From Rhodospirillaceae bacterium (GTDB lineage: Bacteria > Pseudomonadota > Gammaproteobacteria > Steroidobacterales > Rariloculaceae), in contig JAHEEN010000013.1 of NCBI GenBank assembly GCA_024640685.1, positions 1 to 33,652 on the forward strand: 33,652 bases of DNA. The letters run 5' to 3'. A model generated the notes under the pieces. It had not been told where the DNA came from and did no database searches. It was given only the letters and a program-made list of their open reading frames with translations. A program made the translations under genes and the position numbers. Below are positions 10,348 through 28,106 of this stretch, in pieces; the first letter of the stretch is position 1; each line of letters begins with the position of its first letter.

Positions 10348-11403
10348 TTGTTGAGAAGAATACAAACACGGACCAGGGCGCTGCTAATACCGCTGCTCGC
10401 GGCTGCGCCGATCACGGCGCTCGGCCAGGACAGCTCCGGGCTACCGCTGTTCGCGGACGATGCACGCTTGAGTCTGCGCATCGAAGCACCGATGCGCACC
10501 CTGTCCCGAGATCGCCGCGACCGCGAAGAGCTCGAAGGCATTCTGACTTACACAGACACCGCCGGCAGCGAGGTCACGCTCGACTTGCAGGTCCGAACGC
10601 GCGGCAACTCGCGCATGAATATCTGCACGTTCCCACCGCTGCGGCTGAATTTACGGCGCCGCCAAGTCGAAGGCACACTGTTCGCCGGACAGAATCAGCT
10701 CAAGCTCGTCACTCTCTGTAAAGATCAGACGGCGTATCGCGATTACCTCGCGCTCGAGTACTCGCTGTACTCGGTGTTCGCGTTGCTGACCGACCGCTCC
10801 TATCGCGTTCGCTGGGTCGACATCGACTATGTCGACACAGATCGCCGCCGGCCCGACGTCGAGACGCGCAGCGGCTATCTAATCGAGGAGGACACCGAGC
10901 TCGCAGCGCGCACCGGCATGGAGGTTTGGCGCGCCGATACACTCGATCTGGCGATACTCGATCCTGTGCAGACGGCCCAGCTTGCCCTATTCCACTACAT
11001 GGTCGGCAACACGGACTGGGCGGCGACCACCGGCCCGCCTGGCGAGCGTTGCTGCCACAATGGCGATCTGTTCCGCGATTCGACGGGCCAAGCGGTCGTC
11101 GTGCCTTACGATTTCGATCAGTCCGGCCTGATCGACGCCGACTATGCGACGCCCGCCGACAACCTACCGATTCGTAGCGTTTCGCAACGCCTGTTTCGCG
11201 GTTACTGCGTCCACAACGACAGGATAGACGACATCATTCGTCAACTGACCGACGCCCGCAGCGACATCGAGGCCGTATTCGAAAGCGCCGAAATACGCGA
11301 GCGTACGCGAGAGCGCGTACTGCGCTACATAGATGACTTCTACGAGATTCTTGCCGACCCTGACGAGCGGGCTGAACGCATCAACGCCGCTTGCCGCGGC
11401 TAA
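10348..11403 (+). CDS. Exported hypothetical protein, possible CotH-like atypical kinase fold
   Basis: TTG start with signal peptide; LQVRTRGNSRMNICTFPPLRLNL, FAGQNQLKLVTLCKD, ALFHYMVGNTDWAATTG...CCHNGDLF...VVVPYDFDQSGLIDADYATP resemble CotH-type proteins. Confidence 0.6.
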   Translation: MLRRIQTRTRALLIPLLAAAPITALGQDSSGLPLFADDARLSLRIEAPMRTLSRDRRDREELEGILTYTDTAGSEVTLDLQVRTRGNSRMNICTFPPLRLNLRRRQVEGTLFAGQNQLKLVTLCKDQTAYRDYLALEYSLYSVFALLTDRSYRVRWVDIDYVDTDRRRPDVETRSGYLIEEDTELAARTGMEVWRADTLDLAILDPVQTAQLALFHYMVGNTDWAATTGPPGERCCHNGDLFRDSTGQAVVVPYDFDQSGLIDADYATPADNLPIRSVSQRLFRGYCVHNDRIDDIIRQLTDARSDIEAVFESAEIRERTRERVLRYIDDFYEILADPDERAERINAACRG

Positions 11404-11424: not shown

Positions 11425-12135
11425 TCAGTCCGTTCGATCCTGTCTCTCGATCTCGGCGAGCTTGCGGGCCTGCTTGGCCGCCTCGACGGGATTCGCACCG
11501 TAGTCGATGCCCCAGAGAATCACGGACGCAAAACAGAAAAATAACGTCATGACGACGCCGACTCCAAGATAACCGATACCGGAAGCGAGACCGACGCAGA
11601 TTGCTGCAAACACGTAGATCCCATCTAACGCATCGGGTAAGCGCACACGAAACCGCACGGCAGTGACGAGTGCGGCTAAGCCGAATGCGAGTGCGAGACT
11701 ATCTTGAATGAGCAACACGACCGTCGTCGCGCAGATCGGTAAGACGATCAAAGCCTCGACGAACGCCTTGCGATATCCCTGCGGATGCTTGATCGACATG
11801 TAGACCCATGTGATTGGGATCATCAACACGATCGTCCCGAGCAAGCTTGCAACGAGAAACAATGCGGCATGCAACCGTGTCGACCACGGTCCTTCGTGGT
11901 CCGGCTCCGCTAGGTTCGGCGCCTCGGCTGCTGTGCCGTTAGTGAGCTCGAACACCTGCCGCGCGGTGTCCGATACGTCGAGCGCACGACCGCCGAACGG
12001 AAGGTACACTTGGCTCTGAGGAATCGCCGTCGCCAGCGTTGCGAGTGCAGCGAGGAGCACGGCGAAATAGATCGCAAGCCGCGCAGCCAGTCCTTTCGGG
12101 GTAATGAGATTAGTTCGCAACGCGCCCTCGTCCAC
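11425..12135 (-). CDS. DUF4956-like membrane protein
   Basis: GTG start; hydrophobic segments and YRKAFVEALIVLPICATTVVLLIQDSLALAFGLAALVTAVRFRVRLPDALDGIYVFAAICVGLASGIGYL, typical of DUF4956. Confidence 0.78.
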   Translation of the reverse strand: MDEGALRTNLITPKGLAARLAIYFAVLLAALATLATAIPQSQVYLPFGGRALDVSDTARQVFELTNGTAAEAPNLAEPDHEGPWSTRLHAALFLVASLLGTIVLMIPITWVYMSIKHPQGYRKAFVEALIVLPICATTVVLLIQDSLALAFGLAALVTAVRFRVRLPDALDGIYVFAAICVGLASGIGYLGVGVVMTLFFCFASVILWGIDYGANPVEAAKQARKLAEIERQDRTD

Positions 12136-12194: not shown

Positions 12195-14033
12195 GTGAGG
12201 CCATCGCGCCGTTGCACTCTTGTCGCATGCATCTGCAGCGCGTTTGCCGCGCCCGCGCTGGGCGAGGAACCTTGGCGCATTGAAACGGCCGACCGGCTCA
12301 TCGCGCTCGCCGATATTCACGGCGCATATACCGAATTTCGCGACATGCTCGTCCAGGTCGGTGTTATCGGCACTGACGATAGCTGGGCAGCCGGCACGAC
12401 GCGACTCGTGATCGTCGGCGACGTGCTCGACCGCGGTCCGGATTCGCGTCTGGCTCTCGACCTGATTATCGCACTGCAAACGCAAGCGCGAGCCTCGGGC
12501 GGTGACGTTCACTTCGTGCTCGGCAATCACGAGGTCATGAACCTGACCGGAGACATGCGGTACGTCTCGGCTGAGGAATACGCCGCATTCGCCGCCGCAG
12601 AGACGCCCGACATGCGTGCGGCTGGTCTCGCCGATTTCATGGCCCGTGCAGAAGCCGGCGTCACGCCCGAGGCTGCCGAAGCCGAGTTCAACCGCCGGTA
12701 TCCGGCCGGTTTTTTTGCGCATCGAGCGGCTTTCGGGTCGGGTGGACACTACGGCGCTTGGCTGCTCGAGCAACCAGTGCTGCTCGTCGCCCACAATTCG
12801 GTTTTCGTCCACGGCGGGCTGTCGCGGCGTCTTGCCGGCGTGTCGGGCGGCGACATCAACGTAAGCCTGAAGCAGCAGCTGCGCGCGTACGTCGACGGCG
12901 TCGAGCGGCTGACGGCGGCCGGCGTGCTGTCACCGATCGACGACTTCTACGACCATACTGCGCTCATTGCCAGTTTCGAGGCACGCGTTGCCGCAGGAGA
13001 AGCGAGCTGGGCCGACGATGTCGCGGCAACAGCGAGCCGCGTCGTCGAGCTCAATGAGGCAGCGGTGTTCGCGCTCACAAGCCCCACGTGGTACCGCGGC
13101 ACGGTGGGTTGCAGCCCGTTCGTCGAGCAAGACCATTGGACCGCGATGCTCACCCAGCTCGATGTCGAGCGCATTGTCGTCGGCCACACGCCGACACCCG
13201 AATACCGTATTCTGAGCCGGATGTCGGGCGGTATTCTACGCATCGATACCGGCATGCTCGGCAGCTATTACGGCGGTCAAGCAGCAGCACTGCTGATCGA
13301 AGCGGATTCGGTCACGGCGGCGCACGCCGGTGAGGCCGACACTGCAGCCGTCATGCCACAGCCGCGGCGCGTCGGCCGGCGGCCGGAGGCGTTGACCGAC
13401 GACGCGCTCGCAGCTCTGCTGCGCGACGGCAACATTGCGGCGCAACAGGTGAACGAGACCGGCCAGGTTCGTGTGACCGTCAGCGGCGACGGCATATCGG
13501 TCGAAGCCGATTTCATTCCTGCGAGTGGTGACACCGAGCGTCCCGCGGTCGCGGCCTATGCGCTCGATAGATTGCTGGGGCTCGACATGGTGCCGGTAAC
13601 GGTCTCGCGAGCAGTAGACGGCGTCGACGGCTCGCTACAATTTCGGCCAGCAGGCACGCTAACCGAGTCGCAGCGCAGCGAGCGAGGCACGGGCGGCGCA
13701 GCCTGGTGTCCGCTCAGGGATCAGTTTCCCGCAATGTACGTTTTCGACACGCTCGTCTTCAACGAAGGGCGTAGCGTCGAGCAGATCGCCTACGACCCTG
13801 AGAGCTTCCAGCTGATGCTGCTCGGCCACGAGCGCACGTTCTCGACACGACGCGGTCGGCCCGCGCACTTGCGCGAGGCGGCGCTCGACATCAACGCGGC
13901 ATGGCGGGACGCGCTCGTGCGCCTCGACGAGGACGTGTTGTCGGCCGAGCTCGGTGATTGGCTGAGTCGCCGGCAGGTACGCGCGCTCGCTCGGAGAATT
14001 GACGACGTTTTAGAGGACGCGGCGGAGAATTAG
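12195..14033 (+). CDS. Exported metallophosphoesterase with C-terminal FAM20/PI3K-like (probably inactive) kinase domain
   Basis: Signal peptide; ADIHG, GDVLDRGPDS, GNHEVMN and GHTPTPEYR calcineurin-like motifs; C-terminus AAYALDRLLGLDMVPVTVSRAVDGVDGSLQF...YVFDTLVFNEGRS...LLGHERTF...LDEDVLSAELGDWLSRRQVRALARRIDDVL resembles bacterial kinase-fold proteins. Confidence 0.82.
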   Translation: MRPSRRCTLVACICSAFAAPALGEEPWRIETADRLIALADIHGAYTEFRDMLVQVGVIGTDDSWAAGTTRLVIVGDVLDRGPDSRLALDLIIALQTQARASGGDVHFVLGNHEVMNLTGDMRYVSAEEYAAFAAAETPDMRAAGLADFMARAEAGVTPEAAEAEFNRRYPAGFFAHRAAFGSGGHYGAWLLEQPVLLVAHNSVFVHGGLSRRLAGVSGGDINVSLKQQLRAYVDGVERLTAAGVLSPIDDFYDHTALIASFEARVAAGEASWADDVAATASRVVELNEAAVFALTSPTWYRGTVGCSPFVEQDHWTAMLTQLDVERIVVGHTPTPEYRILSRMSGGILRIDTGMLGSYYGGQAAALLIEADSVTAAHAGEADTAAVMPQPRRVGRRPEALTDDALAALLRDGNIAAQQVNETGQVRVTVSGDGISVEADFIPASGDTERPAVAAYALDRLLGLDMVPVTVSRAVDGVDGSLQFRPAGTLTESQRSERGTGGAAWCPLRDQFPAMYVFDTLVFNEGRSVEQIAYDPESFQLMLLGHERTFSTRRGRPAHLREAALDINAAWRDALVRLDEDVLSAELGDWLSRRQVRALARRIDDVLEDAAEN

Positions 14034-19495: not shown

Positions 19496-20629
19496 TCACT
19501 GCAGCCAGAGCGTGATCTCGTCCTTGAGGCGCTCGAAGAACCCGGACTCACCGACATCTTCGAGAACCACGAGCGGCAGCTCGGCCAATGAATCGCCGTT
19601 CAACGATACCCGGACCGTACCGACCAGCCGCTCCTTCTCTAGGGGCGCTACGAGCTCGGACTCGAGATCCATCTCGGCTGCAAGCGAGTCGTATTGCCCG
19701 CGAGGAATCGTGATGAACAGGTCATCCGTGACGCCGAGCTGAACGCTCTCGGACTCGCCCTTCCAAACCCTCGCCGTCGTGATCTCCGCGCCGTCCGTGT
19801 AGAGACGATGCGTCTCGAAGAAACGAAAACCGTAGTTCAACAATGCCTGCGTCGCATCGGCACGCGACTCAGGGCTTTGCGTACCTAGCACGACGGCCAT
19901 GAGCCGCATGCCGTCGCGTTCCGCCGACGTCACGAGACAATAGCCAGCCGCATCCGTGTGCCCGGTCTTGAGCCCATCGACCGAATCGTCGCGCCATAGC
20001 AACGAATTGCGATTGTGCTGGCGAATGCCGTTGTAGGTGTACTCGAGCTCCGAGTAATAACCGTAATACTCGGGAAACTCGGCAATGATCGCCTGCGCCA
20101 GCGTCACGACGTCGCGGGCCGTCATCACGTGATTATCGCCCGGCAAGCCGGTCGAATTCTGGAAATGGCTACCGGTCATCCCAAGCATCTCGGCATGATG
20201 GTTCATCAACGCGACAAACGTTTCCTCGGAACCGGCGACATGCTCGGCCAGCGCGACGCTCGCATCGTTGCCCGACTGGATGATCATGCCGCGGATCAAG
20301 TCCTCGACACCGACTTCGGTACCGACCTCGATGAACATCCGAGAGCCCGGCGTGCGCCAAGCCTTCTCGCTGACGCGCACTTGATCCGACAGACTGATCT
20401 GACCCTCATCGAGCGCGTGAAAGACCGCATACGCAGTCATGAGCTTCGTCAGACTTGCCGGCTCGACCGGTTGATCGGGCGCCTGCTCGGCCAACACCCG
20501 GTTACTCGCAAAGTCCATTAACAGGAAGCTGCGTGCTCCGACCTGGGGAGGCGCGGGAATCGGGACCTCGGCTGCGAAGCTGGATACCGCAACGAGGGGG
20601 ATCAGCAAAATCGTCCAGACGCGAGTCAT
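19496..20629 (-). CDS. dacA: D-alanyl-D-alanine carboxypeptidase (PBP5/6 type)
   Basis: SLTKLMTAY (SxxK), SGND (SxN), DGLKTGHTDAAGYC (KTG); signal peptide from in-frame ATG 20629 (MTRVWTILLIPLVAVSSFAA). Confidence 0.95.
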   Translation of the reverse strand: MTRVWTILLIPLVAVSSFAAEVPIPAPPQVGARSFLLMDFASNRVLAEQAPDQPVEPASLTKLMTAYAVFHALDEGQISLSDQVRVSEKAWRTPGSRMFIEVGTEVGVEDLIRGMIIQSGNDASVALAEHVAGSEETFVALMNHHAEMLGMTGSHFQNSTGLPGDNHVMTARDVVTLAQAIIAEFPEYYGYYSELEYTYNGIRQHNRNSLLWRDDSVDGLKTGHTDAAGYCLVTSAERDGMRLMAVVLGTQSPESRADATQALLNYGFRFFETHRLYTDGAEITTARVWKGESESVQLGVTDDLFITIPRGQYDSLAAEMDLESELVAPLEKERLVGTVRVSLNGDSLAELPLVVLEDVGESGFFERLKDEITLWLQ

Positions 20630-20684
20630 CGATAGTCTCCTGTGACAAAGTCCGTTTTTCGTGCCGAGTCTCAACGCCCGGCCG

Positions 20685-21536
20685 TTAATTCACAACTACG
20701 AGCAAGCTTTCGTTCAGGCCGATCGCGCTGAGCTCGCGACGAACGTCATCGAACGCCGCAACACCGCCAGCCAATGGGCCAATACGAACCCGGTGCAACG
20801 CACCGGTACTTGCGGATTCCGTTACGACAAATGCGTCGCTATGGCCGCTCGTTCGAAGCCGACCGACGAGTTGCTCGGCGTTGTCGCGGCTGGAGAACGC
20901 GCCGACTTGTGCGAACACTTGCGGCCCTGCTCCATAAACAGAATCCAAATCGGCCGCCGCGGCCTCCGAGATCAAGCTGAACCGCGGTTGCGGCCGCTCC
21001 TCCGGCGCCGGCGCCGCCGCAACCCGAGCGCCCGGCAGTTCACCGCTGACCGGTACACCGAGCGCCCGCACTTCGACGTTGGCGGTGCCGTTTCTGATCA
21101 TTTCGAGTTCGCTTGCGGCCGCGTACGACAAGTCGATGATGCGTCCGCCGACAAACGGCCCTCGGTCATTAATCCTGACGATGACGCGCCTATCGTTCTC
21201 GAGGTTCGTGACCTCGACCCACGTCGGTATCGGCAGCGTCTTGTGCGCGGCTGTCAAGCCGTGCATATCGTAGGCTTCACCGTTTGCCGTCGCACGGCCG
21301 TGGAAGTCCTCGCCGTACCACGAAGCGACGCCCCGCTCGCGATAATCGACGCTGTCCGTGCGAGTGTAGTACGTCTCACCGAAGACTTCATAGACTGGCG
21401 CATTACCGGCCCGCGTGCGCTCAGGCGCGATGATCGATTCACGATCGATCTCGAGCGGACGCTGCGCGCCGCCCGAAGCGCAGCCTGCAAGTGCGGCCAC
21501 GAGCACGGCGACGCCGAGTAGGCGATATGCCATCAT
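20685..21536 (-). CDS. rlpA: RlpA septal ring lytic transglycosylase (lipoprotein with SPOR domain)
   Basis: Lipobox LAGC; ERGVASWYGEDFHGRATANGEAYDMHGLTAAHKTLPIPTWVEVTNLEN; C-terminal SPOR-like QVFAQVGAFSSRDNAEQLVGRL. Confidence 0.95.
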   Translation of the reverse strand: MMAYRLLGVAVLVAALAGCASGGAQRPLEIDRESIIAPERTRAGNAPVYEVFGETYYTRTDSVDYRERGVASWYGEDFHGRATANGEAYDMHGLTAAHKTLPIPTWVEVTNLENDRRVIVRINDRGPFVGGRIIDLSYAAASELEMIRNGTANVEVRALGVPVSGELPGARVAAAPAPEERPQPRFSLISEAAAADLDSVYGAGPQVFAQVGAFSSRDNAEQLVGRLRTSGHSDAFVVTESASTGALHRVRIGPLAGGVAAFDDVRRELSAIGLNESLLVVVN

Positions 21537-22576
21537 GCCTCATCCTCCGAGTCAGCCGTCGTCTGGGCAGCCGCAACGCGGCGCGCCTCGGCGACAATCG
21601 CGTCGGCGAGCTGCTTGACGGCGAGCGCGTACATGACGCTGCGGTTATAGCGCGTGATGACGAAGAAGTTATGGAATCCGACCCAATACTCCGTGCCGTC
21701 GTAGCCCTCGAGACCGAGCACTGTCGCCGGCGCCGATTCGGGCAGCGCGGTCGCAAAATCGTAGCCGGCTTGCGCCAGCGCACCGACACTGTCGTTGAGA
21801 TCCATGCTGTTCGCAGGCGTCCCGGCACTCGCATCCCCGCGCCGCATCGCCGGCACGATGACCGGCTCGTCGGTACGCCAGCCGTGCGATTTGAAGTAAT
21901 TAGCGACACTGCCGAAGATGTCTTCCCAGTTACCCCAAAGATCGCGACGGCCGTCGGTATTGCCATCGACGGCGTAGGCTCGATAGCTCGTCGGGATGAA
22001 CTGCCCGGCCCCCATCGCGCCCGCATATGATCCGAGCGCCTCACGCGGGTCTATGACCTCTTCGCGCGTCAGCAACAAGAACGCCTCGAGCTCGTTACGA
22101 AAAAAGTTTGCGCGCCGGGGATACGAAAATGCCAGCGTGCTCAGCGCTTCGAGCACGCTGTAGACACCCATGCGCGTGCCGAACCGCGTCTCGACACCGA
22201 GAATTGCAACGAGTATCTCCGCCGGGACGCCATAGGCCTCGCTCGCGGCAGCGAGCTGCGCACGATGCTCGTCCCAGAACGCCGCTCCGGCCGTGATGCG
22301 ACTGTCCGTGACGAAAATGTCGCGGTACTCGTGCCACTCGAGCACGCGTTCGGCCGGTCGGGAAATCGACTCGAGGATCCGCTCGTTGACTTCGATGTCG
22401 GCGAACATAGCCTCGAGCTCACCGCGATTGAAGCCGTGCGTTGCAGCCATCCGCGCAATGAACTCAGCTTGCGTCTCTTCGATATCCTGAGCGACAACGA
22501 ACATCGGAGCGATGAACGCAGCGACCGCGAGTGCGGCCGAAAACTGAGTGAGCGGCTTCCAGATTCCCACCATCAT
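21533..22576 (-). CDS. mltB: Lytic murein transglycosylase B
   Basis: VPAEILVAILGVETRFGTRMGVYSVLEALSTLAFSYPRRANFFRNELEAFLLLTREE...GSYAGAMGAGQFIPTSYRAYAVDGNTDGRRDLW. ATG at 22576 overlaps the rodA stop (ATGA). Confidence 0.95.
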   Translation of the reverse strand: MMVGIWKPLTQFSAALAVAAFIAPMFVVAQDIEETQAEFIARMAATHGFNRGELEAMFADIEVNERILESISRPAERVLEWHEYRDIFVTDSRITAGAAFWDEHRAQLAAASEAYGVPAEILVAILGVETRFGTRMGVYSVLEALSTLAFSYPRRANFFRNELEAFLLLTREEVIDPREALGSYAGAMGAGQFIPTSYRAYAVDGNTDGRRDLWGNWEDIFGSVANYFKSHGWRTDEPVIVPAMRRGDASAGTPANSMDLNDSVGALAQAGYDFATALPESAPATVLGLEGYDGTEYWVGFHNFFVITRYNRSVMYALAVKQLADAIVAEARRVAAAQTTADSEDEA

Positions 22577-23706
22577 GGCGCCAGCAACTTCTTGTTTCCT
22601 TGAATCGCGACGAGCATACCGAAACCGGCCATGAGCGTCACCATCGACGTCCCGCCGGCGCTGATGAACGGCAGCGGCACGCCGACGATAGGCAGCAATC
22701 CGGAGACCATGCCTGCATTGACGAATACATAGAAAAAGAACGTCAGGCTCAGCGCGCCGGCCAGCAGCCTCGTATACGTTTCTTGCGCCTGCAGCGCAAT
22801 GAAAAGTCCACGGCCGATCAACGCGAGATACAGTCCGAGCAGCAGCAACAGCCCGAGCAAGCCGAACTCCTCGCCCATGACGGCGAACACGAAGTCCGTA
22901 GAGCGCTCCGGCAAGAATTCGAGATGCGCTTGCGTGCCGTTCAACCAGCCTTTGCCGAAGAGCCCGCCCGAGCCCAACGCAATCTTGGACTGAATAATGT
23001 TGTATCCGGCACCGAGCGGATCGGTCTCCGGGTTCAAAAACGTCATGACACGGGCGCGCTGATAATCGTGCATGTAGTTCCACAGCAACGGTGCGGAACC
23101 GACGGCGAGCACGCCGGCAGCGACGATCAATCGAAAGCTGACGCCGGCCAATAAAATGGTAATTCCGCCAGCGGCGACGATCAGCAACGCGGTGCCGAGA
23201 TCCGGTTGCCGCGCAACCATCAGCGCCGGTGTGAACACGATCGCGAGCAGCACGAACAACTGAGAAAAACGCGGCGGCAACGTGCGCTCGTGCATGAACC
23301 ACGCAACCATCATCGGCACAGCGAGCTTCATGATCTCGGAAGGCTGAAAGCGCACGACACCGAGATCGAGCCAGCGTTGCGCGCCCTTGCCGATGTCGCC
23401 TCTGATCTCGACGAGCGCCAGCAGCACCATACCTAGACAGAAAACCCACGGCGTCCACCGCCGCAAGACGCGGGGCGGTATTTGCGCAATGACGAGGAAG
23501 GCGCCGAACGCTATCGCAAGCCGAATACCTTGGCGCAACAATAACGCACTGTTCTCTTCGAGTGCGCTGTAGAGCACGATAAAACCGTAGGCGCTGATCG
23601 CGAGCAGAATGACGAGCAGCGGCAGATCGATGACGACGCTGCGAAACTGCAACGGTCGCAGCACAGCCGCCGGGTGCTTGCCGAGCTCAATGCTCCCGAG
23701 TGACAT
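22573..23706 (-). CDS. rodA: Rod shape-determining protein RodA (SEDS glycosyltransferase)
   Basis: SEDS features: AQRWLDLGVVRFQPSEIMKLAVPMM, DLGTALLI, LNGTQAHLEFLPERSTDFVFAVMGEEFG, GVPLPFISAGGTSM; start MSLGSIELG at 23706. Confidence 0.96.
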   Translation of the reverse strand: MSLGSIELGKHPAAVLRPLQFRSVVIDLPLLVILLAISAYGFIVLYSALEENSALLLRQGIRLAIAFGAFLVIAQIPPRVLRRWTPWVFCLGMVLLALVEIRGDIGKGAQRWLDLGVVRFQPSEIMKLAVPMMVAWFMHERTLPPRFSQLFVLLAIVFTPALMVARQPDLGTALLIVAAGGITILLAGVSFRLIVAAGVLAVGSAPLLWNYMHDYQRARVMTFLNPETDPLGAGYNIIQSKIALGSGGLFGKGWLNGTQAHLEFLPERSTDFVFAVMGEEFGLLGLLLLLGLYLALIGRGLFIALQAQETYTRLLAGALSLTFFFYVFVNAGMVSGLLPIVGVPLPFISAGGTSMVTLMAGFGMLVAIQGNKKLLAP

Positions 23707-25606
23707 ACTCAGTTCCCATGAAATAAACATCGAGCAAAGTGCGCGCAACCGGCGCGGCCGCACTCGCGCCGCCACCGCCATTTTCGACGACGACGGCAAC
23801 CGCAATCGTTGGGCTTTCTATCGGCGCAAACGCGATGAACAATCCGTGGTCGCGCAACCGCTCGGAAACGTTTTCCGCATCGTACTTTTCTTCCTGGGCG
23901 ATCGAAAACACTTGGGCCGTTCCGGTTTTCCCGGCGACGCTATACGGCGCATCGTTCATCGTATTGAACCCGGATCCTCGCGGCTCCCCAGTGACACCAG
24001 CCATTGCATCGTGAATGTACTGCCACTGCGAGTCGTCGATATCGAGCGGCTCGATTCCGACGGGCTCCAAGTCGACGCGCTCCGCGGTCGTGCCGTTCTC
24101 GGTCGCGATGACGAGACGCGGCCGGTACCCGACACCACGGTTTGCGAGCACCGCGGTCGCGTGCGCGAGCTGAATGGGCGTAACGAGCGTAAAACCTTGA
24201 CCGATGCCCGTGATGACGGTCTCGCCGGGAAACCAGACTTGGTCCTCGCGCCGCGAGAAGTTTCTGCGCTTCCACTCACGCGACGGCACAACACCACGAC
24301 GTTCGCCACTGATGCCGATACCCGTCTGCGCACCGAAACCGAACGATTTCAGAAACTGCTCGATCTTATCGATACCGAGCTCGACAGCAAGGTTGTAGTA
24401 GTAGACATCGCAGGACTGCACGATTGCATCGTGCATGTCGACGAGACCGTGTCCTTGCGGACGCCAGTCCCGATAACGATGCGAGTTGCCGGGCAGCATG
24501 AAGAACCCCGGACACATCGACCGACCGTTCGGCTCAATCGACGCGTAAAAAAGCGCGGCCAGACCGAGAAACGGCTTGACGACCGAGCCCGGCGGATACG
24601 TGCCGGCCAATGCGCGATTGAACAATGGATTGTCCGGATCGTTGTTGAGCTCGCGAAAGTCCTGCTGACTAAGACCCGTCGTGAAGCGATTCGGATCGAA
24701 CGCAGGCGTGCTGACCAACGCGAGGACGTCACCGTTGCGCGGATCGATTGCGACAACGGCACCGCGAAACTCCCCCAACGCCGCCTCGGCAGCGAGTTGT
24801 AGCTCCATATCCAAACTCGTGACGAGGTTCTGACCCGGCGCCGGCCACAACGTCTCGAGGCCGCCGCCAAACGTCGTCGAATCGACCTGATCGCTGCGGC
24901 TGGCCGGATCGAGCAGCACACGGCCCTGCGCGTTGACGACCTGTTGACGGTAGCCAGCATTGCCGTGAAGCTCGAACTCGAAGCCCCGCTCGACGCCGGT
25001 CTTGCCGATATGCGACGTCGCAGCGTACTCGCTGCGCTCGATGAGCTCGAGATCGGCCGTCGAGATACTCGCGACGTAGCCGATTGCATGGGCTGCCGAC
25101 GCCCCATAGGGATAGTGGCGAACGAGCCCTTCGCGAATATCGATACCCGGATGCTGATGTCGACGCACCGCAAACCTCGCAGCCGTCTCCTCGCTCAACG
25201 TACCGAGCACGACATGCTCGAAGCGGCGATGGGAGCGAACGAGGTCGAGCAGTGCGGGGCGATCCTCGACATCGACGAGACCGAGCTCGACGAGCGAATC
25301 GAGCGATGCGTCGAGATCCGAGATCTGCTCCGGTATCAGCACGAGCTCCCAGGCCGGAAGGTTCTCGGCCAAAATTTTTCCATTGCGGTCGTAAACGAGG
25401 CCTCGGGTCGGCGGCAGCGGCTCGATGCGCAATCGGTTGCCTTGCGAGAGATCGGCGAACGTTTGATAGTCGACGATCTGTAGCTGCACGAGGCGGTAGA
25501 TCAACACGCCCGTCAGCGCGACCATGACGACGACCGCCGCAACGATCCGCGTGAAGAACAGGCGCTGCTCTTTCCAGTGATCCTTTAACGGTACTGCGGC
25601 GCTCAT
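23687..25606 (-). CDS. mrdA: Penicillin-binding protein 2
   Basis: YPPGSVVKPFLGLAAL (SxxK), QSCDVYYYNLA (SxD), VAGKTGTAQVF (KTGT); N-terminal TM segment. Confidence 0.97.
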   Translation of the reverse strand: MSAAVPLKDHWKEQRLFFTRIVAAVVVMVALTGVLIYRLVQLQIVDYQTFADLSQGNRLRIEPLPPTRGLVYDRNGKILAENLPAWELVLIPEQISDLDASLDSLVELGLVDVEDRPALLDLVRSHRRFEHVVLGTLSEETAARFAVRRHQHPGIDIREGLVRHYPYGASAAHAIGYVASISTADLELIERSEYAATSHIGKTGVERGFEFELHGNAGYRQQVVNAQGRVLLDPASRSDQVDSTTFGGGLETLWPAPGQNLVTSLDMELQLAAEAALGEFRGAVVAIDPRNGDVLALVSTPAFDPNRFTTGLSQQDFRELNNDPDNPLFNRALAGTYPPGSVVKPFLGLAALFYASIEPNGRSMCPGFFMLPGNSHRYRDWRPQGHGLVDMHDAIVQSCDVYYYNLAVELGIDKIEQFLKSFGFGAQTGIGISGERRGVVPSREWKRRNFSRREDQVWFPGETVITGIGQGFTLVTPIQLAHATAVLANRGVGYRPRLVIATENGTTAERVDLEPVGIEPLDIDDSQWQYIHDAMAGVTGEPRGSGFNTMNDAPYSVAGKTGTAQVFSIAQEEKYDAENVSERLRDHGLFIAFAPIESPTIAVAVVVENGGGGASAAAPVARTLLDVYFMGTEYVTREH

Positions 25607-25610
25607 CGGA

Positions 25611-26099
25611 TCAAACCCGTACTTGGGCGTCGCGCCTGAATTGGTCGAGATAACCGAGTATCAAAGGCGAGACCAGAGCGCTTGCGAGCAGCGGTGCCCA
25701 ACGCTCGACGATCGGCACCGTGCGCCCGGCGACACCGTCGATCCAAAATAGCACGAACTCGTAGAGCGTCAGCAGCAGCACGATCGTCATGCCGAACTGC
25801 CAGACCGGAAACACGCGGATACGCAGATGAAATCGCAGCGTCAAATACACGACGACGACGAGCGCCAGCGCGTGCTGACCAAGCAGCGCGCCGGACAACG
25901 TATCGAGAAGCAAGCCCATCCCAAATGCCGTCAGGAGACCAAAGCGCTCCGGCGCCATCAGGCTCCAGAAAATCAGGATCAGCGGCACCCACTCTGGACG
26001 AAACGCCGCGATCGATGCCGGCAGCGGCATGATCGTCAGCGCGAGCGCCACGACGAACGTGATCAGCGCGAAACGCAATGTCAGCCGTCCCTCAGCCAT
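25611..26099 (-). CDS. mreD: Rod shape-determining protein MreD
   Basis: Small polytopic membrane protein between mreC and mrdA; PEWVPLILIFWSLMAPERFGLLTAFGMGLLLDTLSGALLGQHAL. Confidence 0.93.
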   Translation of the reverse strand: MAEGRLTLRFALITFVVALALTIMPLPASIAAFRPEWVPLILIFWSLMAPERFGLLTAFGMGLLLDTLSGALLGQHALALVVVVYLTLRFHLRIRVFPVWQFGMTIVLLLTLYEFVLFWIDGVAGRTVPIVERWAPLLASALVSPLILGYLDQFRRDAQVRV

Positions 26100-26998
26100 C
26101 AGCGGGCCTCCGCGAGGCTAGTGGGACGCTCGGCGTCGTGGCGATCGGTCAGCTCGGTCTCCGCGGTCCAGACGAGCAAGACCTCTCGGGCACGGTCGAG
26201 CATAGCGGCGGGCTGCACGTAGATCTCGGAAAAACCCTGCCCTGGTCGCCGCTCGACGGAGCTAACGTAACCAACCGGATAACCGGATGGGAAGACGCCG
26301 CCGAGCCCTGAGGAGATGATCAGGTCGCCTACCTCGACGTCGGCTGTGTTCGGTAGGTACGGCATACGCAGTCGGCCGCTGTCGCCGGTACCGATCACGA
26401 TCGTTCTGAGCCCGTTGCGATTGATCGCGACCGGCAGTGCATGATCGGCGTCGCTGATCAGCACGGCCTCCGACGTAAACGGCTCGGCGTGCATGACCTG
26501 CCCTACGAGCCCGTCGGCATCGAGCAAGGCCTGGCCGACGTAGACGCCGTCAGTCGAACCTCGATTGATGGTGAAACGCTGCCGGTAGGGATCGAGATCG
26601 ACTGCGAGCACTTCGGCAATTAGGACGCGGTCGGCGGCCTTCGCGCTCGAATCGAGCATCGCTCGCAGCCGCCGGTTCTCGGCTTCGAGCGCATCGAGAC
26701 GCTGCAGTCTGACGCCGGCGTCGAGCTTCTCGAACTTTAACGCCTCGTTCTCTGTCAACAGCGCTGAACGCTCGGCCATGGCCGCGTCCACCCATCGCCA
26801 GCCCCGAACGGGCAAATCGACGGCGAGTTGGATCGGGTAGACGAGCACGGAAAACGCTTGGCGGATCGTGCGCAGATGCTCGTCACGATGGTCTAGCACC
26901 ATCAACGACAAGCTGACGATGCAAATCAGGAAGAAACGGAAGCCCAGTGAGGCGCCACCTCGTGCGAAATCGCCGCCAGTTCCTCCTGGAGCAATCAT
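26099..26998 (-). CDS. mreC: Rod shape-determining protein MreC
   Basis: N-terminal TM, coiled coil, NRGSTDGVYVGQALLDADGLVGQVMHAEPFTSEAVLISDADHALPVAINRNGLRTIVIGTG. Confidence 0.95.
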   Translation of the reverse strand: MIAPGGTGGDFARGGASLGFRFFLICIVSLSLMVLDHRDEHLRTIRQAFSVLVYPIQLAVDLPVRGWRWVDAAMAERSALLTENEALKFEKLDAGVRLQRLDALEAENRRLRAMLDSSAKAADRVLIAEVLAVDLDPYRQRFTINRGSTDGVYVGQALLDADGLVGQVMHAEPFTSEAVLISDADHALPVAINRNGLRTIVIGTGDSGRLRMPYLPNTADVEVGDLIISSGLGGVFPSGYPVGYVSSVERRPGQGFSEIYVQPAAMLDRAREVLLVWTAETELTDRHDAERPTSLAEAR

Positions 26999-27047
26999 GG
27001 CCTACGCCACTCCTGTGTCCGTTCGGGTTCTGCGCGAGCCGGATCGA

Positions 27048-28106
<1,059 letters not shown>

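Follow-up and report, generated by a model that had tools for sequence, protein, structure and literature searches.

We report that the gene at 12195-14033 of the window (the whole stretch of 33,652 nucleotides analysed here) encodes what is, as read from its sequence, a metal-dependent PPP-family phosphatase of the Shewanella-like type, predicted to be active, fused to a domain that is a pseudokinase of FAM20/PI4KII-like fold, arisen by loss of its catalytic residues. The protein is probably exported to the periplasm, since the N-terminus is signal-like, as the earlier note on this DNA had claimed, and a comparable hydrophobic stretch is found in 98 of 100 homologs. There is one copy of the gene in its 3.5 Mb draft genome and homologs occur in 143 of the 396 genomes of an order-level survey; scans of the locus for a sigma-70 promoter and a terminator gave nothing above chance. 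The features discussed below are collected in Table 1.

Table 1. Coordinates of the features of the window (upper rows) and of related loci (last two rows).
Feature	Position	Strand	Remarks
CotH-like putative secreted kinase, candidate opposing enzyme	10348..11403	+	weak Pfam CotH match
DUF4956 membrane protein, conserved neighbour	11425..12135	-	Pfam PF16316 E=6.5e-9
Phosphatase-pseudokinase gene	12195..14033	+	612 aa, GTG start, ORF open
Predicted signal peptide, about aa 1-23	12195..12263	+	MRPSRRCTLVACICSAFAAPALGEE
Calcineurin-like (Shewanella-like PPP) phosphatase domain, aa 34-375	12294..13319	+	PF00149; PDB 1v73/2zbm/2z72
ADIHG metal motif, aa 39-43	12309..12323	+	A for G at first position of GDxHG
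GDVLDRG motif, aa 75-81	12417..12437	+	
GNHE motif, aa 110-113	12522..12533	+	
VHGG motif, aa 205-208	12807..12818	+	
Cys306, phosphatase side of predicted disulfide	13110..13112	+	co-occurs with C505
GHTPTPE motif, aa 330-336	13182..13202	+	
FAM20/PI4KII-like predicted pseudokinase domain, aa 390-612	13362..14030	+	AF2, Foldseek, profile matches
I441 at beta3 Lys position	13515..13517	+	K or R in intact relatives
A451 at conserved αC-region Glu/Asp position	13545..13547	+	E/D in 103/113 relatives
Cys505, kinase-domain side of predicted disulfide	13707..13709	+	co-occurs with C306
NEGR, degenerate catalytic loop, G525 for Asp	13761..13772	+	NxDR in intact relatives
LLGHERTF, degenerate metal-binding segment, G544 for Asp	13818..13841	+	LIDHxRAF in intact relatives
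Mirror-image tandem paralogs	L081:5926-11248 and L076:707-6084		
Divergent secreted FAM20/PI4K-like kinase family	L145:6727-7782, L158:3206-4288, L155:235-1290 and relatives		HxDxNxGN ... (I/V)D(N/H)GVAF

Residues 390-612 taken alone match no database family with confidence, the best hit being a sub-threshold one to TIGR03843 (SCO1664) at 15.4 bits against an NCBIfam cut-off of 172.4. An AF2 model of this domain, built from 106 homologs, reached a pLDDT of 94.9 and a pTM of 0.91, and its best PDB matches in Foldseek are PI4KIIα (3e-7) and FAM20A (8.6e-7, TM 0.70 on the query), with further matches to PI3Ks, CtkA and HipT. The earlier note had proposed a kinase-like fold for this half, to be abandoned if structure prediction and Foldseek found none; that fold is what the search returned. 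A profile of 29 intact-looking relatives finds FAM20B (4.8e-12), FAM20A (9.4e-12) and FAM20C (2.3e-9) in the PDB, and a profile of 39 degenerate-clade sequences alone still finds FAM20A at 1.3e-4, so that the intact relatives are not the sole basis of the fold assignment. Since the domain is conserved in more than 150 proteins and the degenerate and intact groups align end to end in hhalign (E=2.5e-56), the resemblance is not a matter of chance. Membership of the FAM20/PI4KII-like kinase superfamily, at the level of the modelled fold, is well supported.

The residues expected of an active FAM20-like kinase (K, E, D, N and D) are replaced in this domain by I441, A451, G525, Q530 and G544, Q530 standing at the position of the Asn that follows the catalytic-loop Asp; the Lys, catalytic Asp and metal Asp are thus all gone, and homologs are intact at the aligned columns. 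Both Asp-to-Gly changes had been noticed in the earlier note, which placed NEGR correctly, whereas the whole of FDTLVFNEGR, given there as 13761-13772, occupies 13743-13772, and LLGHERTF, given as 13822-13839, was slightly displaced. That note also proposed an alignment of homologs at these positions, and neither of the two outcomes that it named as overturning its reading came about. Among the close homologs examined, none has the two Asps together, while K/R, E/D, NxDRNxxN and IDHxRAF are kept at the same columns in distant fused relatives from the Steroidobacteraceae, Kangiellaceae, Acidobacteria, Myxococcota and Latescibacterota. Because these distant relatives hold Asp at exactly aligned positions, the domain reads as a true pseudokinase by loss; alignment error as the source of the missing Asps is ruled out, the intact relatives aligning without gaps around both motifs. 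Among relatives the lost positions vary freely, with I, Y, T, A, S, R and L among the residues found there. In Fam20C, the mutants K271A and D478A, equivalent to I441 and G544, are unable to bind ATP (PMC5413348). The losses of Lys and Glu and the intact fused relatives go beyond the earlier note, as do the Cys pair, the reciprocal loss and the neighbourhood pattern described below.

The phosphatase half presents the opposite picture, with nine of the nine catalytic residues checked intact. The phosphoesterase motifs that had been read from the sequence before (ADIHG, GDVLDRG, GNHE and GHTPTPE) were all located, and with VHGG they make up the PPP series GDxHG, GDxxDRG, GNHE, H(G)G and GHT; D40 and H42 of ADIHG are kept in 102 of 102 fused proteins with a dead kinase. 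Pfam Metallophos (PF00149) matches at E=5.8e-9, phmmer finds the Shewanella phosphatase 1v73 at E=3.5e-23 and Foldseek finds 2zbm at 7.8e-17. The nearest solved structures are protein tyrosine phosphatases (the Shewanella cold-active enzymes), and ApaH-like enzymes likewise lie near in the fold comparison. The catalytic domain and all of the motifs are shared with the cold-active enzyme (1v73/2z72); the solved Shewanella-like enzymes, however, have no kinase-fold domain, whereas the window protein adds C306 and a pseudokinase that is predicted to be docked.

A pair of cysteines, one in each half, suggests how the two domains may be held together. In fused proteins C306 and C505 are both present in 120 cases and both absent in 31, with no mixed case, and neither is found in lone domains. 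The full-length model (pLDDT 96.3, pTM 0.93) predicts a fixed arrangement of phosphatase and pseudokinase, and this model and the perfect co-occurrence of the cysteines lead us to predict an inter-domain disulfide, C306-C505, which fits an oxidising compartment.

A survey of about 160 loci revealed kinase decay in fusions with the phosphatase and nowhere else. Lone kinase-domain proteins have both Asps in 29 of 29 cases; L172, which at first looks like an exception, is a fusion cut by a contig end and lies outside the 29. The 149 assessable fused proteins divide into 102 with a dead kinase, 41 with both halves intact and 6 with an altered phosphatase. All nine phosphatase residues are intact in every one of the 102, each of the six proteins with an altered phosphatase retains an intact kinase, and loss of both halves was not seen (Fisher, 8e-4, or 9e-3 with only the four clearly dead phosphatases, neither value corrected for ancestry). 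On a phosphatase-domain tree the two Asps require 11 and 10 changes, which, as minima from a quick tree whose root was not inferred, are not dated events; from these changes we take loss to have been probably repeated. The two opposite forms can be found within one operon in the Kangiellaceae loci L081 and L076, where an intact phosphatase with a dead kinase is followed by a transporter and then by a paralog with a dead phosphatase and an intact kinase; in L081, SNVFG, GEKVNSD and SEKE replace GDIHG, GDMLDRG and GNHE.

The degenerate domain is itself well conserved. Its identity to the two nearest relatives is 59.8 and 61.7%, against 58.1 and 59.7% for the phosphatase, and within the degenerate clade it has an invariant non-catalytic residue set, including E107, R110, R142 and Q126 (domain numbering), and a mean column identity of 59%. 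Fusions with a dead kinase, more than 100 proteins, span Woeseiales-type, Kangiellales and Acidobacteria lineages. In the Acidobacteria the two domains are often separate, adjacent genes, a lone intact kinase lying within 4 kb of 17 of 30 lone phosphatases. In one acidobacterial genome (G762) the phosphatase/kinase family has about 15 matches, a local expansion, with four lone intact kinase ORFs within one 14-kb locus (L099). Elsewhere, a 575-aa protein (L111:7138-8862) has an intact kinase domain after about 380 residues that are unlike the phosphatase.

The state of the kinase tends to go with particular genes nearby. For 141 non-redundant fused genes we counted neighbours up to 4 kb away. 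A transporter was found beside 26 of 42 with an intact kinase (the other 16 having none nearby), 2 of 35 that have lost the first Asp only, 0 of 3 that have lost the second only and 4 of 61 that have lost both; the corresponding counts for a CotH-like gene are 0/42, 2/35, 2/3 and 48/61. The p-values of these associations, about 1e-11, ignore shared ancestry. Of 8 phylogenetically independent pairs, 3.5 favour the transporter link and 0.3 speak against it, which is the expected direction but, in so small a sample, not significant (median p 0.25), and the link of the CotH-like gene with a dead kinase amounts to one or a few events. A CotH-like gene also adjoins a phosphatase without any kinase domain (L110), and the transporter lies between a lone kinase and a lone phosphatase in L103 and L112.

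By its sequence the transporter is of the TLC ATP/ADP type, transport itself being putative: four of five pass the PF03219 cut-off and the fifth matches MFS_1 only. Since PF03219 alone is insensitive to this subfamily (it misses L122), genomes were counted by profile search, in which only matches above about 400 bits were accepted, so as to clear the many MFS matches near 200 bits. Five of the six dead-kinase genes with a near transporter also have a separate intact secreted kinase in the same locus, the sixth running off its contig, and in seven more loci, where the transporter lies at a distance of about 8 kb, an intact secreted kinase adjoins the transporter. These kinases include a divergent FAM20/PI4K-like family, with no Pfam assignment above cut-off, whose readable members keep HxDxNxGN and (I/V)D(N/H). 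That the transporter subfamily always accompanies a FAM20-like kinase is ruled out by L203-L207, L209-L212 and L214, which have no detectable neighbouring kinase. The same subfamily is also found near proteins of about 1000 aa with PPDK_N and PEP-utiliser domains, another type of ATP-using enzyme (L201:3880-6969, L203:3693-6692, also L204 and L214).

In the window itself the gene order is CotH-like (+), DUF4956 (-) and phosphatase-pseudokinase (+), and a DUF4956 gene is present in 18 of 53 dead-kinase loci against 0 of 26 intact ones. The CotH-like protein scores 14.6 bits against a gathering score of 23.8 for CotH (PF08757), and its family aligns to CotH in hhalign with a probability of 60%; a search of the PDB with its profile gave no match. 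The family has invariant GNTD, HN and PYDFD motifs, and the CotH catalytic residues (D223, N238, D255 and D257 in A5) are invariant. With the CotH spore-coat kinases it shares the GNTD...HN...PYDFD pattern, predicted secretion and a weak similarity, and it differs from them as a distinct, Cys-rich Gram-negative family. One 870-aa ORF from the same taxonomic family as the window (L213:601-3210) joins a TLC/MFS-type transporter (residues 19-442) to a CotH-like domain (residues 457-794), and because of this fusion we consider the CotH-like family to be tied to the same ATP logic. Searches of the window's genome found no canonical CotH gene at 1e-10, no intact paralog that might serve as partner kinase and, by profile search, no cassette-type transporter, the only match being of the MFS background. 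Downstream (19496-28091) lie cell-wall elongation genes that read as DacA-, RlpA-, MltB-, RodA-, PBP2-, MreC- and MreB-like; they are not conserved neighbours in the relatives examined.

The explanation that we favour, and hold to be rather probable, is that this is an exported PPP phosphatase which its pseudokinase docks or regulates and which a separate secreted kinase opposes. The ancestral form would have been a kinase-phosphatase pair, adjacent and then fused, often served by a TLC-type ATP/ADP transporter; once a further secreted kinase was at hand, catalysis would have been lost from the fused copy and the phosphatase kept. The disulfide would clamp the pseudokinase onto the phosphatase. 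Unable to bind Mg-ATP normally, the pseudokinase would serve for docking or allosteric control and would present phosphorylated substrates outside the cytoplasm to the phosphatase, while the separate kinase, here most likely the adjoining CotH-like protein, would add the phosphate. The fold, the catalytic losses and the intact phosphatase are well supported; beyond them we infer, with less confidence at each step, regulation or docking by the pseudokinase, the bond between C306 and C505, the identity of the partner kinase and its supply of ATP. Counting against this explanation are the intact-kinase loci with no transporter nearby, the transporters with no FAM20-like neighbour, the lack of significance in independent pairs, the weakness of the CotH similarity and the absence from the window's genome of a cassette-type transporter to supply the CotH-like protein with ATP.

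The substrate need not be a protein. FAM20B, the best profile match of the intact relatives, acts on xylose, PI4KII, the best fold match, acts on lipid, and the proximity of ApaH-like enzymes to the phosphatase fold points the same way, so that the target of kinase relatives and phosphatase might be a small molecule, a lipid or a glycan outside the cell, with the pseudokinase as its binding domain; with protein tyrosine phosphatases as the nearest solved relatives of the phosphatase, we think this somewhat unlikely. We regard as unlikely, too, and a little more so, a purely structural role, in which the phosphatase needs the ex-kinase domain in order to fold or stay stable and the domain has no part in docking or regulation. 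The rigid two-domain model and the co-occurring cysteines would suit such a prop, and lone phosphatases, including that of L110, bear on it in both senses: phosphatases without the domain exist, but they show that the catalytic domain can do without it, and the invariant non-catalytic set and mean column identity of the degenerate domain are more than a prop seems to need.

The free variation at the catalytic positions would also be expected of a functionless, dying remnant, yet the domain is still open, as well conserved as the phosphatase and still fused across the lineages of dead-kinase proteins listed above, which makes neutral decay very improbable. Least likely of all, by a little, is a new catalytic activity. 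SelO and SidJ, pseudokinases that AMPylate or glutamylate, are precedents elsewhere, and the invariant E107, R110, R142 and Q126 would be in keeping with it; SelO and SidJ, by contrast, retain nucleotide and metal ligands, whereas here the Lys, the Glu, the Asn and both Asps have gone.

Several known systems can be set beside the favoured reading of a docking or regulatory pseudokinase. The FAM20 family has kinases alongside a pseudokinase that acts as a regulator (PMC7948968, PMC5865150), and the window protein shares with FAM20A and FAM20C the fold, N-lobe sequence and extracytoplasmic location. It differs in being bacterial and fused, with a phosphatase as its partner in cis, and in lacking the Lys and metal Asp, whereas FAM20A has an inverted mode of ATP binding and serves to activate a kinase. 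All 29 of the intact-kinase relatives scanned match the TIGR03843/SCO1664 model (best 1.1e-19), unlike the window protein, which is below the cut-off, has no catalytic residues and is an exported fusion. The bacterial STK pseudokinases ActPs, GLW, CP1, DYD and DLHK likewise lack catalytic motifs within a kinase fold but, unlike the window protein, belong to the canonical STK family (PMC12599244); the same review has FAM20 in a reference only and no phosphatase fusion. Neither the fusion nor the cassette turned up in the literature covered, subscription papers and preprints lying outside that coverage.

To our knowledge, protein phosphorylation outside the bacterial cytoplasm has been little explored, and it raises the question of how ATP would reach a periplasmic kinase. 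That intact-kinase relatives are often beside an ATP/ADP-type transporter points to a set of proteins that put phosphate on and take it off outside the cytoplasm, and the TLC-type transporter is a candidate answer to the question of the ATP source. We suggest, tentatively and with less confidence than we have in the explanation of the single protein, that secreted FAM20-like or CotH-like kinase, secreted PPP phosphatase and an ATP/ADP-type exchanger feeding the kinase may form a conserved cassette, a bacterial counterpart of eukaryotic secretory-pathway phosphorylation, in which fused copies can lose either activity, never both, and of which the window protein would be the phosphatase-only end state. 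Lone kinases and phosphatases, intact fusions, dead kinases and dead phosphatases make up a natural series in which the origin and use of pseudokinases can be tested.
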